A stretch of 25,678 nucleotides of DNA from IMG/VR virus record IMGVR_UViG_3300023184_003513, positions 1 to 25,678 of that record. One strand, written 5' to 3'. Under the pieces are notes generated by a model. The model saw nothing but the letters and a program-made list of their open reading frames with translations, was not told where the DNA came from and made no database searches. The DNA comes from a virus. The translations under genes were made by a program, and so were the position numbers. Shown piece by piece: positions 3 through 6,905 of this stretch (the first letter of the stretch is position 1; each line of letters begins with the position of its first letter).

Positions 3-1820
3 AAAGAAGATACAATTAACAAATGGGATAAATTAGGATTCCTAGAAGGCCTTAAAGGTCACCTAAAAGAGAACGTAGCTCAGTTATATGAGAATCAAGC
101 GTCTCACTTAATAAACGAAGCTACTGCAGAAGGTTCTTCAGGTTCATTTGAAACTGTTGTTTTTCCTATCGTTAGACGTGTATTCTCTAAATTATTAGCG
201 AATGATATCGTTTCTGTACAAGCGATGAACTTACCAATCGGTAAATTATTTTACTTTGTACCTAAAATTCAAGGGTATGATGGATATTCCGCACAAACAC
301 CAGATAGTAATTACGCAGGTCAATCAGGTGAACATTACGGACCAATCGGTTCTGCTGGAGGTCCAACTGCGGCTGACGGAAGAGAAGGTTTAGGTTACGG
401 TTCAACATCAACTTACGGTAAGAAAAATCTTTATGATTTATTCTATGAAGGAAATGAAGGACAATTAGACCCTCCAGGTTTATTTGACTATTCTAAAGGA
501 CAATGGTCAGCAATTACTGTTGGAACTCTTGTTCAAGTTTGGCAAGACGGTAATTTAATGAACTTATCTGCGGCTACTGACCCAACAATGCTTGACGGTA
601 CAAACCAAAGAAAACTAATCGTTAAAATGTGTGGATTTGCTAACGCAGGTTCAGGAAAATTAATCGGACCTGATGGTAATGAGTATGACTCAGAATCTTT
701 CTTGGCTGACTTAAGAATTTATGCTAACACTGATTTTACCGCAACAGGTAACACATGTAACACATTATTTAATGCTAGCAACAAACCTAACTCATTATTG
801 TTCAGAGTTGTTACTCAACAATATGGTCAAGGAATCGTTAGTGGTTTAAATAGTATGGCACAAACAGAATTCGCATCAACAGGTAATGGTGGTCAATATA
901 ATAATGTTTGTAACCAAAGTGGTTGTATCTATTTAGAAGTGGATTTATCTTGTCCAGCATGTGCTGACTGTGGTTCAACTTCATTAGATGGTTACACAGG
1001 AACAACTATTGAGACATTAGGTGGTACTGAATTCACAACTGTATTCAGACGTTATGCTGATTTAGAGTTTGAAGACAAAATTGGTGAGGTTTCTTTCGAA
1101 TTAGATTCTGTTACAGTATCTGTTACTGAAAGAAAATTAAGAGCACAATGGTCTCCTGAGTTAGCTCAAGACGTTGCGGCTTTCCACAACATTGATGCTG
1201 AGGCTGAATTAACGGCTTTATTATCTGAACAAGTTGCAGCTGAAATCGACCGTGAAATCTTAAGAGATTTACGTAAAGGTGCGGCTTGGAACTTACGTTG
1301 GGATTACAATGGTTGGAGAAGAATTTCTGCTACAACTAACTACACTCAAAAAGACTGGAACCAAACATTAATCACTGCGATTAATCAGTTGTCGGCACAA
1401 ATCCACAAATCTACTTTAAGAGGTGGAGCTAACTGGATTGTTGTTTCTTCTGAAGTTTCTGCGATTTTTGATGATTTAGAATACTTCCACGTATCTAACG
1501 CGTCTCCTGAGCAAGACCAATACAACATGGGTATTGAAAGAGTTGGTACATTAGCTGGTCGTTACCAAGTTTACCGTGACCCTTACTTCCCACCAAACAC
1601 AGTTTTGATTGGACACAAAGGAACGTCATTGTTAGACACAGGTTACATCTACGCACCATACGTACCATTACAATTAACACCTACAATGTATAACCCATTC
1701 AACTTTACACCTATTAAAGGTATTATGACACGTTACGCTAAGAAAATGGTTAATAACCGTTTCTACGGACGTATCACTGTTGACGGTGTTCGTACATTCG
1801 ATTTAAGAGAATTGAGATAA
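3..1820 (+). CDS. Major capsid protein, T4 gp23-like (5' end outside the window)
   Basis: This is the main shell protein of the phage head. The frame is open to the left edge, so the gene begins before the window; the first ATG at 225 is internal. Residues read upstream of it (W-D-K-L-G-F-L-E-G-L, then the FPIVRRVFSKLLANDIVSVQ block at about 150-220) follow the gp23 family pattern, and the C-terminus (NRFYGRITVDGVRTFDLREL) is also gp23-like. A propeptide cleavage site is visible: LINE (108-119) followed by Ala, placed before the FPIVRR block just as the T4 site (IAE/A) precedes its MVRR block. The middle has a Cys-rich insertion (about 900-985, with C-x6-C and CPACADC) absent from T4 gp23. 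A strong terminator follows. The family assignment is firm; the role of the Cys insertion is unknown. Confidence 0.93.
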   Translation, partial: KEDTINKWDKLGFLEGLKGHLKENVAQLYENQASHLINEATAEGSSGSFETVVFPIVRRVFSKLLANDIVSVQAMNLPIGKLFYFVPKIQGYDGYSAQTPDSNYAGQSGEHYGPIGSAGGPTAADGREGLGYGSTSTYGKKNLYDLFYEGNEGQLDPPGLFDYSKGQWSAITVGTLVQVWQDGNLMNLSAATDPTMLDGTNQRKLIVKMCGFANAGSGKLIGPDGNEYDSESFLADLRIYANTDFTATGNTCNTLFNASNKPNSLLFRVVTQQYGQGIVSGLNSMAQTEFASTGNGGQYNNVCNQSGCIYLEVDLSCPACADCGSTSLDGYTGTTIETLGGTEFTTVFRRYADLEFEDKIGEVSFELDSVTVSVTERKLRAQWSPELAQDVAAFHNIDAEAELTALLSEQVAAEIDREILRDLRKGAAWNLRWDYNGWRRISATTNYTQKDWNQTLITAINQLSAQIHKSTLRGGANWIVVSSEVSAIFDDLEYFHVSNASPEQDQYNMGIERVGTLAGRYQVYRDPYFPPNTVLIGHKGTSLLDTGYIYAPYVPLQLTPTMYNPFNFTPIKGIMTRYAKKMVNNRFYGRITVDGVRTFDLRELR

Positions 1821-1843: not shown

Positions 1844-1873
1844 AAAGGAGACAAGAAATTGTCTCCTTTTTTT
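1844..1873 (+). terminator. Rho-independent terminator after the capsid gene
   Basis: An 11-bp perfect stem (1844-1854 with 1859-1869, arms AAAGGAGACAA and TTGTCTCCTTT) closes a GAAA tetraloop and runs into a T tract to 1873. It sits 23 bases after the capsid stop codon and should isolate the highly expressed capsid unit from the secreted-protein genes downstream. Confidence 0.93.
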
Positions 1874-1968: not shown

Positions 1969-3120
1969 ATGAAAAAAATATTATTATTTTTAACTTTCTT
2001 AATCTCCACGACAGTATTTTCACAAGGAGTGGGGATTAACACCGATGGAAGTTCACCGAATACATCCGCAATATTGGATGTTAAATCAACATCTCAAGGT
2101 GTCCTTATCTCAAGGATGACTGAAGCAAATAAAAATGCGATAACATCACCAGCAACAGGGTTGATAATTTATCAAACAGATGTTGTGTCGGGGTTTTATT
2201 ATTATAATGGAACAATATGGGTTAAAATGTCTGTAGATGGTGATAATATTAAAAACGGAACCTCAATTCAAACATCCGCTAATTATAATATAGATGGGAA
2301 TGGAACATTAGGGGGAGATATTAATGTTAATGGTCAAGATATTAATGGTTCAGGTATTAATGGAGGAACCAGCGGGATATTAAGAATTAATTCAAATACA
2401 GATGTTAGAGTTGCGTTAGATAAAGACGCCAATGGAAGTCAGCAGTTTGAGGTAACCAATGACGGAGGGTCAACCTCAGTGTTTTCGGTGACTGAGGCGG
2501 GGAATGTGACAACTAAAGGTTATGTTAGAATGTTAGAAACAGGAACAACACCAACACTATATACGGCAATACAAAGTGGGGATTTAACAGGTTCTAATTT
2601 AACTTTAACTTTACCAACATCTGCAGGTACCTCAGGTCAATTTTTAAAAACTGATGGTACAGGTGTGACTTCATGGAGTACTTTAAGTCAAAGTTCATCA
2701 ACTACTTATCAAACCGCGGCTCTTGTACCAACAACCACAACATCATCAGTTGTTACAGGATTAACCACAACTTTTACTGCTGATGCCAATCACGTTTATT
2801 ATATATCAACAACGGGATGTGTTTATGACGCTTCTGCAACAACAAATAGAAATGTTAACTCACAAGTTAGTATTTTTGTTGACGGGGTAGTATTAACCGC
2901 AGGAACTCAAGTGGCTTGTGCCCAAAATTTAGGTACAACATCTTTATGGACCTACGGTAATTGGTCATTAAATCAAGTCGTGTCACTTACCGCTGGGTCA
3001 CATACAATAGATGTTAGAGCAAATAGAAGGTCCGACTCTAATATTGATAATCCTACTGTTGGTGGGGCGGCAGCATCTGTTTGTCAAGGACAACTAACGG
3101 TTATGGTTATTTCTAAATAA
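1969..3120 (+). CDS. Secreted Bacteroidota-type surface protein, phage-encoded
   Basis: This 383-residue protein begins with a clear Sec signal peptide: MKK, a hydrophobic stretch ILLFLTFLISTTV, and likely cleavage after FS before QGVGIN. The ATG at 1924 is in frame but would put 15 residues before the signal, so 1969 is preferred. The first 80 residues (GVGINTDGSSPNTSAILDV, then GVLISRMTEANKNAI and GLIIYQTD) match the opening of many flavobacterial exported proteins that end in fibre-like domains. The middle is Gly/Asn/Thr-rich and fibre-like, including SAGTSGQFLKTDGTGVTSW. The C-terminal 130 residues look like a beta-sandwich with several Cys. It is 10 bases upstream of another secreted protein, so the pair are probably co-transcribed. 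The surface location is inferred from the signal peptide; the activity is unknown. A host-derived origin is likely. Confidence 0.8.
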   Translation: MKKILLFLTFLISTTVFSQGVGINTDGSSPNTSAILDVKSTSQGVLISRMTEANKNAITSPATGLIIYQTDVVSGFYYYNGTIWVKMSVDGDNIKNGTSIQTSANYNIDGNGTLGGDINVNGQDINGSGINGGTSGILRINSNTDVRVALDKDANGSQQFEVTNDGGSTSVFSVTEAGNVTTKGYVRMLETGTTPTLYTAIQSGDLTGSNLTLTLPTSAGTSGQFLKTDGTGVTSWSTLSQSSSTTYQTAALVPTTTTSSVVTGLTTTFTADANHVYYISTTGCVYDASATTNRNVNSQVSIFVDGVVLTAGTQVACAQNLGTTSLWTYGNWSLNQVVSLTAGSHTIDVRANRRSDSNIDNPTVGGAAASVCQGQLTVMVISK

Positions 3121-3130
3121 AAATCGTACG

Positions 3131-4438
3131 ATGAAAAAATTTATAATTACCTTATTTATTTCTTATGGTCTTTTGGGGTATTCTCAAAACGCAACATTTA
3201 AACCAACAGGAGGGGTTAACATTGTCTCAACGAACGACCCTTATTTGGTTTTAAATAATACTGACTACAATAACGTATCATCAACAAATGTCGGTGGTAA
3301 GTGGATTTTCGTAGGAATTAATCAACAAACAATAAGTGGGACTCAAACATCATTTTATAAAGGAACTTTAAATAATTCTAATGGATTTATAATATCAACA
3401 CCCGTAACATTTAGTGATGAATTAAATATGGTTACAGGGATTGTGACAAATACAAGTATGATTGAAGTCGGTACAGGAACCTCAAATATAGGGGTTTTAA
3501 ATTGGACTGACGGAACGATAACAGGTCAACTTAAAAGATGGTTTGACGGTACAACAAACTCAACTCAATCAAGTGGTATTTTCCCAATTGGAACATCCTC
3601 ATATAATAGAAACATTCTAATTAACTACACTGAATCGACTTCGGGAGGTTATTTAGTTGGTGAATATGTCTCAGGATTACCGTCTATGAGTAATATATAC
3701 AATGGACTACCATTAACCTCATCTGATGCTCAATTAGTTACTGATTATGTTCCTGACGGATATTGGAGTATTACTCCCGATAGTTACAGTAGTACAATGA
3801 ACACTAAAAAATATTCAACAACAATTAGAGCGAATACTCTGACAAATATTGTTGATAGAAATTTAACAAGGATTATTAAGAATGTCGGACCGTCAAATAC
3901 AATATGGTCCGCTGGAGGAACCCACAATTCAATAAATGGTACCACAGACTTAGATTATACGTTAATTAGTGACAACATCATTGGTTTTAATTGGTTACAA
4001 GTTGGAATAGTTAATAGTAATCCACTACCAATCGAATTATTATATTTTAATGGTGTATCGTACCCTAAGTACAATTTATTAAGATGGTCAACCGCAACAG
4101 AAAATAACGCAAGTCATTATATTCTTGGTAAAAGTGTCGATGGTATAAATTGGTTACAGGTCGGTAAGGTAACCGCCTCAGGTAATTCAACGGTCAAACT
4201 AAACTATAGTTACGTTGATTTATTCATAGAACCCACAATCAATTACTACAGATTGACACAGTTTGACTACGATGGTAAATCAAAAACGTATGATATTATT
4301 GATTTAGATAATAGAATCAAAACAAAGACTATTGTTAAATATTTTAATTTATTGGGTCAAGAAATTAATGAGTCGAATGCGTTTGGGGTAATAATTGTTA
4401 TTTATAGTGACGGAACAAGTCAAAGAATTATAAAATAA
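3131..4438 (+). CDS. Secreted protein with a type IX secretion-like C-terminal tail
   Basis: This 435-residue protein has an N-terminal signal peptide (MKKFIITLFISYGLLGYS, probable cut before QNATF). Residues 20-290 are a beta-rich Ser/Thr/Asn region of unknown function. From about 298 the sequence is typical of Bacteroidota exported proteins: PLPIELLYFNG, then NLLRWSTATENNASHYILGKS and INYYRLTQFDYDGKSKTY. The last 35 residues (YFNLLGQEIN, GVIIVIYSDGTSQRIIK) resemble the end of a type A sorting domain for type IX secretion. The usual PNP segment that opens that domain is not visible, so the tail may be a short variant or degenerate. The gene lies directly downstream of another secreted protein and before the leader-bearing genes. 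Display on or release from the host surface is inferred. Confidence 0.78.
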   Translation: MKKFIITLFISYGLLGYSQNATFKPTGGVNIVSTNDPYLVLNNTDYNNVSSTNVGGKWIFVGINQQTISGTQTSFYKGTLNNSNGFIISTPVTFSDELNMVTGIVTNTSMIEVGTGTSNIGVLNWTDGTITGQLKRWFDGTTNSTQSSGIFPIGTSSYNRNILINYTESTSGGYLVGEYVSGLPSMSNIYNGLPLTSSDAQLVTDYVPDGYWSITPDSYSSTMNTKKYSTTIRANTLTNIVDRNLTRIIKNVGPSNTIWSAGGTHNSINGTTDLDYTLISDNIIGFNWLQVGIVNSNPLPIELLYFNGVSYPKYNLLRWSTATENNASHYILGKSVDGINWLQVGKVTASGNSTVKLNYSYVDLFIEPTINYYRLTQFDYDGKSKTYDIIDLDNRIKTKTIVKYFNLLGQEINESNAFGVIIVIYSDGTSQRIIK

Positions 4439-4441
4439 GAG

Positions 4442-4449
4442 TATTTATA
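4442..4449 (+). promoter_or_regulatory. TATTTATA box
   Basis: The box lies only 3 bases before the ATG at 4453 and 3 bases after the previous stop. If it is a promoter like the others, the message would be nearly leaderless. The unusual spacing makes this copy less certain. Confidence 0.3.
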
Positions 4450-4452
4450 TAT

Positions 4453-4869
4453 ATGAATACTTTAAGGGGAATAATCCAAGAACACCTTTTATTAGAAAAA
4501 AGAATTGCTCAAATTGTACATGAGATACAAACACAATTCAATTTTGAAGTTTCAAGAACGGCCCATTCTTCTGATAGGTCAACAAGACCTGAATTAAAGG
4601 ATTCATACAATCAAAGAGAAATTACGAATTTAGAGGTAAAAGAATTTGTCGCACTATTCATTAGAGAGATTGCGGAAAGAATTGTTTACCGTGAAATTAA
4701 TGATGGTGATGCGTTTGTAATTAAATCAAACAAGTGGGAATTGGCTTTACCAATTATACCGATTCATAATGGGGGTTCAAGTTGGACTTTATTATTCAGT
4801 ACTGCCTTTAGAGAGTCTGAGGGTAATCCGTTTAGAGTTGGTAAAAATCAATTAGTCTTGTGGAGGTAA
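4453..4869 (+). CDS. Putative capsid-internal protein with leader; possible RelE/BECR-like fold
   Basis: A 138-residue protein of uncertain function. It opens with a short helical leader, MNTLRGIIQEHLLLEKR, containing (L/I)xE sites (LLE at 13-15, IQE at 8-10). The leader resembles the T4 capsid-targeting sequence MKTYQEFIAE that sends internal proteins into the prohead. After the leader comes HSSDRSTRP (about residues 38-46), a Glu-rich helix (NQREITNLEVKEFV), and then beta strands (DAFVIKSNKWELALPII, WTLLFSTAFRE). The H-x2-D-R, helix and beta-sheet order recalls small RelE/BECR-type nuclease folds, but no catalytic set can be assigned by eye. It stands before two peptidoglycan-binding proteins with similar leaders. 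Its stop codon overlaps the 3' end of the candidate small RNA on the other strand. Confidence 0.7.
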   Translation: MNTLRGIIQEHLLLEKRIAQIVHEIQTQFNFEVSRTAHSSDRSTRPELKDSYNQREITNLEVKEFVALFIREIAERIVYREINDGDAFVIKSNKWELALPIIPIHNGGSSWTLLFSTAFRESEGNPFRVGKNQLVLWR

Positions 4870-5975: not shown

Positions 5976-6305
5976 ATGAAAAGATTAATTATAACCGAAA
6001 GTGAAAGAGCAAAAATTCTTAATATGCACGGGTTTAAAAAAATGTTATCTGAATCGACAATACAAGATGTACAAACTTTACTAAATAGTAAATTTAGTGC
6101 GGGGTTAACCGCTGATGGTAAATATGGTCCTAAAACCGCTGCGGCAATTGAAAAAGCTTTAGGTATTGGTGGAACACCTGCGGGAACTTCGACAGGAACA
6201 CCTGCGGGAACTACAACAGGAACACCTGCGGGAACTACAACAGGAACACCAAATGCTGGCGATATTGCTGGCGGAGACAAGGGTGAACCAAGTGACGTAG
6301 GTTAA
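5976..6305 (+). CDS. Small leader-bearing peptidoglycan-binding protein with Gly-Thr-Pro tail
   Basis: A 109-residue protein. Residues 1-26 (MKRLIITESERAKILNMHGF, ending KKMLSE) align with the leader of the gene before it: MK+L, an acidic turn, ILN(L/M)H, a Lys-rich turn and LSE. Residues 29-62 (IQDVQTLLNSKF, LTADGKYGPKTAAAIEKAL) are a good PG_binding_1 domain with the usual DGKYGPKT turn. The rest is a low-complexity Gly-Thr-Pro-Ala tail. Binding to peptidoglycan is well supported. Packaging into the head and processing after E26 is inferred. Its stop overlaps, tail to tail, the stop of the methylglyoxal synthase gene by 4 bases, leaving no room for a terminator. Confidence 0.8.
   Translation: MKRLIITESERAKILNMHGFKKMLSESTIQDVQTLLNSKFSAGLTADGKYGPKTAAAIEKALGIGGTPAGTSTGTPAGTTTGTPAGTTTGTPNAGDIAGGDKGEPSDVG
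6171..6250 (+). repeat. 24-bp coding repeat (GTPAGTTT units)
   Basis: Three 24-base units (6171-6194, 6195-6218, 6219-6242) and a partial fourth (6243-6250) encode repeats of Gly-Thr-Pro-Ala-Gly-Thr-x-Thr in the C-terminal tail. The second and third units are identical, which points to recent duplication. Confidence 0.92.
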
Positions 6306-6682
6306 AAAACAATACAATCAATTAATCTACTTGCCGTAGAGTAATTTGTTGCTAAAGGAATGTCGTGAACATTACATATCCTTAATAACATACTAACATC
6401 CACTTGATGTGGATGAACTTCCAAGGGGTCGATGAAGAATATAACTACATCGACCTCTTTGTTTACAATCATTGACGCAATCTGAGCATCACCCCCCATT
6501 GGTCCACTAAACATTGTTCTAACCTTTTGTAGACCCGCATGAATTAAATGTTTACCTGTAGTTCCCGTGGCAATTACCTCAACATTTTTTGATGTGAAAA
6601 AAGGGATTCGTTTCATTACAAACGATACCATATCGGCCTTCTTACCGTCATGAGCAATTAACGCAATTCTAATGTTGCTCAT
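6302..6682 (-). CDS. mgsA: Methylglyoxal synthase
   Basis: The enzyme converts dihydroxyacetone phosphate to methylglyoxal and phosphate, a bypass of lower glycolysis. From MSNIRIALIAHDGKK the 126 residues follow bacterial MgsA throughout: the AHD start, the phosphate loop ATGTTG (38-43), SGPMGGD (59-65), and FFIDPLEVHPHQVDV (82-96). D65, D85, H92 and D95 correspond to E. coli D71, D91, H98 and D101, so catalysis is probably intact. It is shorter than the E. coli enzyme (152 residues), lacking the C-terminal helix. An in-frame ATG at 6700 would add MKNLPK; 6682 is preferred because the sequence matches the family from there. It overlaps the preceding gene by 14 bases. A metabolic enzyme among virion-type genes is unusual. 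Confidence 0.93.
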   Translation of the reverse strand: MSNIRIALIAHDGKKADMVSFVMKRIPFFTSKNVEVIATGTTGKHLIHAGLQKVRTMFSGPMGGDAQIASMIVNKEVDVVIFFIDPLEVHPHQVDVSMLLRICNVHDIPLATNYSTASRLIDCIVF

Positions 6683-6905
6683 CTTGGGTAGGTTCTTCAA
6701 TTTTTGACAAGGTTCTAATACATTTTGAGATTACTTCTGTTTCACCCAAAGAATATACACCCGATTCGTGAGCGTACTTAACCGCCCGAATTAAAAAGTA
6801 TATTGAGGTGTCCTTATCCATTGTTTGTAATATCACCTCCAAATGGTCCTCATTTAAAATAGGTATTGAGTTAAATAAATTTCCAAATAGTTTTTGTTCT
6901 TCCAT
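6669..6905 (-). CDS. Small hypothetical protein upstream of mgsA
   Basis: A 78-residue, acidic, mostly helical protein (MEEQKLFGNLFNSIPILNED, later IYFLIRAVKYAHESGVYSLGETEVISKCI). I recognise no family. It overlaps the methylglyoxal synthase gene by 14 bases, so the two are probably co-transcribed and translationally coupled. A TATAAATA sequence, identical to the T4 late-promoter core when read on the minus strand, lies 15 bases upstream of its ATG (6928-6921). No leader of the (L/I)xE type is evident. Confidence 0.65.
   Translation of the reverse strand: MEEQKLFGNLFNSIPILNEDHLEVILQTMDKDTSIYFLIRAVKYAHESGVYSLGETEVISKCIRTLSKIEEPTQDEQH

Follow-up and report, generated by a model that had tools for sequence, protein, structure and literature searches.

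Two surface-protein-like genes behind a phage capsid gene point to a possible remodelling of the infected cell's surface by the virus

In P. intermedia, which has been termed the sole species reported with both long and short C-terminal domains (CTDs), the short CTDs span about 40-55 residues (given as 40-51 in one place and 43-55 in another), typically form one three-stranded sheet, contain motifs B, D and E only, with 1-6 residues between B and D and sometimes a helix in the loop, and support cleavage and glycosylation (PMC11969387). For HBP35, the last 22 residues, which hold motifs D and E, were found to suffice for secretion of GFP (PMC10202324). Proteins destined for the type IX secretion system (T9SS) have also been found in phages. 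Cryophage, a 76 kb Bacteroidetes phage, encodes endoglucanase, GH39 and PA14 proteins with type A sorting domains, and its authors proposed that the host system is hijacked for roles that include competition or superinfection exclusion (PMC7468147). Like the relatives of the gene described below (ORF2), these are variable phage genes for proteins with T9SS type A sorting domains; the accessible parts of the Cryophage description, however, make no mention of a short tail, of a site linked to the capsid gene gp23 or of a match to the host's dialect of the signal (PMC7468147). Proteins with T9SS sorting domains are likewise encoded beside crAss-BACON genes, upstream of the head section, in phage contigs whose hosts are predicted to be Bacteroidetes, but these are different phages with different cargo, and no short tail is described in the accessible parts of that article (PMC6949934). 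T9SS cargo in a phage has been in print earlier, as a unique occurrence; in the open-licence PMC literature no reports of tail-bearing phages beyond those two articles were found, nor were the short tail, the gp23-linked site or the host-dialect match found in print.

The window analysed here, meaning the whole stretch of 25,678 nucleotides, is a 25.7 kb virus record whose left end carries a gp23-type capsid gene, followed in order by a terminator-like hairpin, ORF1, ORF2 (ten bases after ORF1) and a 138-aa gene (Table 1). The original prediction, made from the letters of the sequence, had placed two exported proteins of host style between the capsid gene and candidate internal-head proteins of a lytic-type phage. 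Reading of the window confirmed both genes at their coordinates; the 'lytic-type' label is a provisional one that rests on the T4-like gp23 (Pfam Gp23, 6.1e-64). The mechanically called frame of ORF1 begins at a GTG at position 1924. Its start is taken here as the ATG at 1969, which gives a protein of 383 aa; the homologues in two further phage contigs (L081 and L002) also begin at that point.

Table 1. Positions of the features discussed, in the window and, where a locus handle is given, in other loci
Feature	Location	Strand	Basis or remark
gp23-type major capsid gene	3..1820	+	5' end cut by window; Pfam PF07068 6.1e-64; PHROG 138 major head protein 1.8e-69
Terminator-like hairpin, between gp23 and ORF1	1844..1869	+	11-pair stem then T run; consensus match only
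ORF1	1969..3120	+	signal peptide, C-terminal head as in exported collagen-like host proteins, no T9SS tail
ORF1 predicted signal peptide (18 aa)	1969..2022	+	direct reading; calibrated rule
ORF2	3131..4438	+	435 aa; signal peptide, body, FnIII domain, short CTD-like tail
ORF2 predicted signal peptide (18 aa)	3131..3184	+	direct reading; calibrated rule
ORF2 body, residues 19-298	3185..4024	+	module of giant host T9SS surface proteins; in 36/299 host genomes
ORF2 fibronectin type III (FnIII) domain, residues 300-396	4028..4318	+	AlphaFold2 pLDDT mostly >90; FnIII chains at Z ~10
ORF2 short CTD-like tail, residues 397-435	4319..4435	+	three strands in model; profile of 36 tails; host occurrence
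Exported M54-like metallopeptidase / DNA/RNA non-specific endonucleases, behind gp23	L090 7797-8399, L093 7875-8450, L121 4510-4995		signal peptides
Subtilase genes near tail genes	L149 8027-9457, L302 2770-4224, L304 6822-8291, L306 6919-8454, L321 6510-7913, L326 4193-5698, L288 3-503		
Membrane-type protein	L109 9984-10442, L113 5523-5990, L133 7325-7783, L148 7189-7668, L160 10375-10854, L263 6414-6890, others		

Both proteins begin with a basic n-region, which is followed by a hydrophobic core and then S-Q, with cleavage predicted after residue 18 and, by reading, no lipobox Cys at +1 of that site. Signal peptides were called with a simple self-made rule, calibrated on non-redundant control ORFs of at least 150 aa that are complete at the 5' end and lie elsewhere than behind gp23 in 80 related phage loci. 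The Sec signal peptides of the original prediction were borne out by the sequence, and the same rule was positive for 56 of 58 5'-complete proteins that share the ORF2 tail, as against 4 of the 238 controls; the two negatives, in L312 and L084, look broken or split.

The remainder of each protein points to an origin in the host. ORF2 matched no family in NCBIfam (E <= 10), Pfam (E <= 1) or PHROGs. In host genomes its body lies mostly within open frames of more than 1000 aa, and in eight host loci that were read the module precedes an FnIII domain and a C-terminus of canonical type, which in one of the eight (L358) is without the PNP part. Given these matches in giant host proteins, ORF2 resembles a signal peptide to which the final 400-odd residues of a giant T9SS protein of the host have been attached; its AlphaFold2 model has pLDDT below 50 at residues 1-28 and 138-299. 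ORF1 has no Pfam or NCBIfam match, two insignificant matches to PHROGs (E 0.43 and 0.46) and a poor structure model (mean pLDDT 41.9). Of 299 host genomes from the order around G003, 14 contain a match to its last 149 residues (the head). The host proteins with this head, in eight loci that were read, all carry signal peptides and measure about 280-350 aa; both of the two tested contain collagen repeats above cut-off, and none of the eight, by reading, carries a T9SS-like tail. A 'GVGINT...AILDVKST' segment in ORF1 is one that we take to be typical of flavobacterial proteins, and the head is C1q/TNF-like by impression only.

ORF2 ends in KYFNLLGQEINESNAFGVIIVIYSDGTSQRIIK without a PNP part, as had been recorded in the original prediction, which likened this end to a type A sorting domain, left that call open because of the missing segment, and named a profile search and a structure prediction as checks. 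The profile search went against the likeness: neither Pfam nor NCBIfam (the latter even at E 10) gave a T9SS sorting-domain match for ORF2, so that the tail is not filed as a member of TIGR04183. The two signals share their C-terminal place and an N-terminal Sec signal peptide, but the type A domain (TIGR04183, PF18962) is a seven-stranded Ig-like beta-sandwich with a PNP motif, whereas the ORF2 tail has no PNP, matches no model and is predicted to consist of three strands (residues 401-405, 420-425 and 430-434, pLDDT >90), the first loop containing a short helix. The original prediction would have counted a C-terminus other than a type IX beta-sandwich as a refutation; three strands, however, are the form that has been predicted in print for short CTDs, and the missing sandwich does not refute a T9SS-like tail. 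The likely answer to the missing PNP, judged from sequence and model, is that the tail resembles a short CTD without motif A.

That resemblance extends to length, the three-stranded sheet, the position at the extreme C-terminus, the lack of motif A, the Gly in B and D, a B-D gap of 1-6 residues and a basic motif E (PMC11969387). Across 36 aligned tails the pattern reads roughly K-x-V-K-Y-x-N-L-x-G-Q-E-V ... G ... Y-x-D-G-T ... K-x-I-R, with G20 and G30 in at least 90% of tails and K/R near the end, the assignment of motifs being our own. There are also differences. Motif D reads GVI in ORF2 as against GxY or GxN in P. intermedia, and the PT/GI-like cleavage consensus of that species, which is possibly species-specific, is absent from ORF2 residues 386-405 (PMC11969387). 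Among the 36 tails GxY occurs in three (L112, L314 and L319), and in the tails of certain phage subtilases the motif is GxY or GFY/GFYF. The short CTDs of P. intermedia are moreover carried by bacterial cargo with experimentally shown cleavage and glycosylation (PMC11969387). Because GxY/GxN and the PT/GI-like site are both absent, membership in that group is not claimed; by analogy, the ORF2 tail may work like a short CTD.

Direct comparisons with canonical domains were faint. A global alignment of 42 short tails with 72 canonical host CTDs brought each of the motifs B, D and E onto its counterpart, though with weak statistics, and hhalign gave a local probability of 8.5 (E 0.0039) and a global probability of 0.1; one phage subtilase (L321) aligned with positions 9-71 of the 72 in TIGR04183 at 7.6 bits, far under the cut-off. 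A Foldseek search of the ORF2 model returned no match at E <= 0.001, and a second structure comparison covered the FnIII domain (residues 300-396) and hardly the tail, with no T9SS CTD entry among the matches listed.

A link to type IX secretion is provided by two other phage contigs in which ORF1 and ORF2 are neighbours. One (L081/L001) is from the same kind of phage and has the pair behind gp23, with ORF1 97% and ORF2 74% identical to the window; in the other (L002, 75 kb) the pair follows a gene that we read as topoisomerase-like, gp23 is not adjacent in the DNA examined, and ORF1 is 79% identical overall. The ORF2 homologues of L081 and L002 both carry the full sorting domain, scoring 24.8 and 33.5 bits with TIGR04183 (cut-off 23) and 35.3 and 30.2 with PF18962 (cut-off 27). 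Between the window and L081, ORF2 is 89% identical over residues 1-298 and 41% from residue 299 onward, which indicates that the end was exchanged or diverged and the body was kept; given this shared body and the canonical ends of the homologues, the short tail occupies the place of a working signal in a sister gene. The T9SS-like tail of the original prediction is thus upheld by these homologues and by the likeness to short CTDs, and not by any curated match of ORF2 itself. In the same comparison dN/dS was 0.14 for ORF1 and 0.11 for ORF2 residues 1-298, against values of 0.28 in gp23 and 0.08 in the 138-aa gene; such low values indicate that ORF1 and ORF2 are both maintained genes under purifying selection. 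Signal peptides, host homologues and purifying selection together support reading the two as exported, host-derived proteins.

The tail and its position recur widely among related phages. A search with gp23 yielded 80 loci, 51 of them with at least 2.5 kb downstream, and in 13 of the 51 a gene combining FnIII and tail starts within 3 kb behind gp23. A separate search with the FnIII-plus-tail alignment yielded 80 loci, and the 96 tail proteins of all loci were reduced to 60 by merging those identical in the last 200 residues. Chance similarity of the tail was rejected, as the same tail closes these 60 non-redundant phage proteins, whose bodies are unlike: some contain GEVED, CUB or FnIII domains above cut-off and others none. 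The locus DNA of 40 of the 60 genes contains gp23, which lies upstream in all 40 (31 within 1 kb, nine within 1-3 kb); by origin, gp23 was present for 28 of the 47 genes that the tail search contributed, for 12 of 12 that came from the window or the search with gp23, as they must by construction, and for 0 of 1 from huge phages. With 20 of the 60 genes lacking gp23 in the DNA examined, the site is not exclusive. Nineteen of these 20 entered a gene-sharing comparison and 13 a further comparison, L084 being in neither; for 16 of the 19 the locus shares no gene with the window, L081 or the Flavobacterium phage immuto, while L304 and L306 contain gp23-like pieces on the opposite strand and L288 has four genes in common with the window, L081 or immuto. 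Immuto itself, whose gp23 is related, has no annotated T9SS gene in the 15.5 kb examined.

Among proteins without the tail encoded within 5 kb behind gp23, 17 of 125 have signal peptides, and among the signal-peptide neighbours are subtilases (PF00082), DNA/RNA non-specific endonucleases (PF01223) and one peptidase of M54-like type. In L119 (11562-13850, 3' end open) the gene behind gp23 encodes a signal-peptide protein that, in our reading, resembles a TonB-dependent outer-membrane receptor. A subtilase gene lies within 4 kb of seven of the 60 tail genes, the complete ones having signal peptides; these subtilases close with a different short tail, which likewise lacks PNP and in many cases contains GxY, a possible second family of phage short CTDs. 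Fourteen of the 60 tail genes have nearby a gene, not present in the window, for a hydrophobic protein of membrane type that measures about 155 aa and reaches the cut-off of no Pfam family; start and stop overlap or touch in about 11 of the 14 cases. In L081 an endonuclease-like gene (our reading) at 4007-4738, absent from the window, separates gp23 from ORF1, and similar genes follow gp23 in many loci.

The short tail is equally a feature of certain hosts. An initial scan found it on 96 of 102 viral and 1 of 98 host FnIII proteins (duplicates included), and a tail confined to viruses was considered; that idea was dropped when a search with the tail alone was run on the order around G003 (L190, Fluviicola), where 181 of 299 genomes proved to carry it, with up to 14 matches per genome. 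The host loci of the first scan, having been chosen by FnIII patterns, were a poor sample for tails. In a phylum-wide draw the tail was found in 3 of 395 genomes, one being the centre itself and two weak. The T9SS protein SprA (TIGR04189) was matched in 292 of the 299 genomes and in 304 of the 395, and being common in both it shows that the phylum draw was not short of T9SS. Three of the seven genomes of the order without a SprA match (G047, G098 and G298), which may be incomplete, have the tail, so SprA presence is no test of dependence. Most of the 5'-complete host tail proteins that were read have signal peptides, their bodies are unlike, and none of three tested reached a T9SS model match. 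The order is inferred to be Flavobacteriales, and in it the short tail is probably an unlisted class of T9SS signal; since such a signal is common there and unmatched by curated models, secretomes in the order are probably undercounted. The phage of the window probably infects Bacteroidota of Flavobacteriales type. The original observation is real, and more general than first noted.

Export is well supported by sequence, and beyond it we infer the passage of ORF2 through the T9SS, surface location, late timing and benefit. We consider it quite probable that ORF2 is exported by the T9SS through its short tail. ORF1 and ORF2 would be host-derived, Sec-exported surface proteins whose genes occupy a hypervariable cargo site that T4-like phages have behind gp23. 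ORF2 would cross the inner membrane via Sec, after which the host T9SS would recognise it by a short C-terminal domain that lacks motif A, as in many hosts of the order, and it would be displayed on the outside of the infected cell or released into the medium; ORF1 would be exported alongside, to the periplasm or the surface. The phage would in this manner alter the cell surface during infection, probably late because of the gene neighbourhood.

The strongest competing explanation, although an unlikely one, is that the tail is a decayed or altered CTD, so that the proteins act in the periplasm, or that it is a decoy which clogs PorV or the T9SS and lowers the display of native cargo such as phage receptors. 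The missing TIGR04183 match, the absent motif A, the atypical motif D, the weak profile similarity and the appearance of ORF2 as the stub of a giant surface protein are all compatible with it, and in F. columnare phage resistance accompanies loss of gliding, with the receptor suspected in the gliding machinery (PMC7345892). Decay, however, would not yield a tail conserved in 60 non-redundant phage proteins and present on many host proteins, and the modelled tail agrees with short CTDs for which cleavage and glycosylation have been published (PMC11969387).

FnIII and Ig-like domains are common on phage heads, and the T4 Hoc protein, a head decoration, has Ig-like domains. Such domains, on which a paper is cited in PMC6949934, and the position of the genes directly behind gp23 suggest that ORF1 and ORF2 might instead belong to the virion, made together with gp23 and attached to the capsid as head fibres or decoration. 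Whereas a virion decoration or fibre protein is taken to have no signal peptide, both proteins carry one, as do nearly all tail proteins; this, and the canonical T9SS domains on the homologues of ORF2, kept the explanation from being the first choice. Their bodies are host surface modules, exported subtilases and nucleases occupy the same site, and a place in the virion is accordingly judged very improbable. The last alternative, that the two are host passenger genes recombined in beside homing endonucleases and useless to the phage, draws on the endonuclease-like genes and high variability of the site but is hardly credible given their dN/dS of 0.11-0.14 and the single domain plan (signal peptide, body, FnIII, tail) that recurs in 60 non-redundant phage genes.

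If the T9SS does export ORF2, the most likely benefit would be that further phage particles, own progeny included, are kept off the infected cell or its debris, or else that native T9SS cargo serving as receptor meets competition; blocked or changed adsorption to infected cells is favoured, with the T9SS decoy as second choice. The original prediction had listed receptor masking, a block on superinfection and altered host adhesion or gliding as possible roles. A benefit of the pair in adsorption or superinfection is nonetheless a tentative proposal, somewhat doubtful on present evidence. A broader conjecture, to which we give slightly less than even weight, is that T4-like phages of one Bacteroidota order maintain behind gp23 a dedicated, recombining cargo site that exports adhesin-like proteins, proteases and nucleases, many via the host T9SS with a short tail in a dialect of the host order that current models miss, and some in sets of several parts (an adhesin with the short tail, a subtilase that is exported and ends in a short tail of its own, and a membrane protein made by translational coupling), so that the infected cell presents a phage-controlled surface. 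If true, lytic-type phages on many contigs would use an outer-membrane secretion system, with exchangeable cargo, to act outside their host, and it becomes possible to test whether phages use the T9SS to keep rivals out or to alter the adhesion of the host.

When named isolates were searched by tblastn with the FnIII-plus-tail region, only four uncultured huge phages matched. These (L083-L086; LR756502, LR745206, LR756500 and LR756504) measure 462-642 kb and encode FnIII proteins that carry signal peptides and whose T9SS-like ends are short, canonical or altered; the L084 gene seems split in two.

Among other elements, the T4-type late promoter TATAAATA gave seven matches, a count not above chance. 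Its reverse complement, TATTTATA, is present on the plus strand of the window at 1947, 4442, 5038 and 6921, shortly upstream of four plus-strand genes; across loci it was found upstream of gp23 in 14 of 83 cases (0.35 expected from shuffles) and upstream of tail genes in 12 of 57 (2.6 expected), a weak hint of a phage promoter element, the motif having been picked post hoc and the sequences being related. A methylglyoxal synthase gene is located at 6302-6700 on the minus strand of the window (PRK05234, 155 bits, cut-off 84) and is also found in L081 (dN/dS 0.04); mgsA is mentioned on a viral scaffold in one article (PMC8066274).
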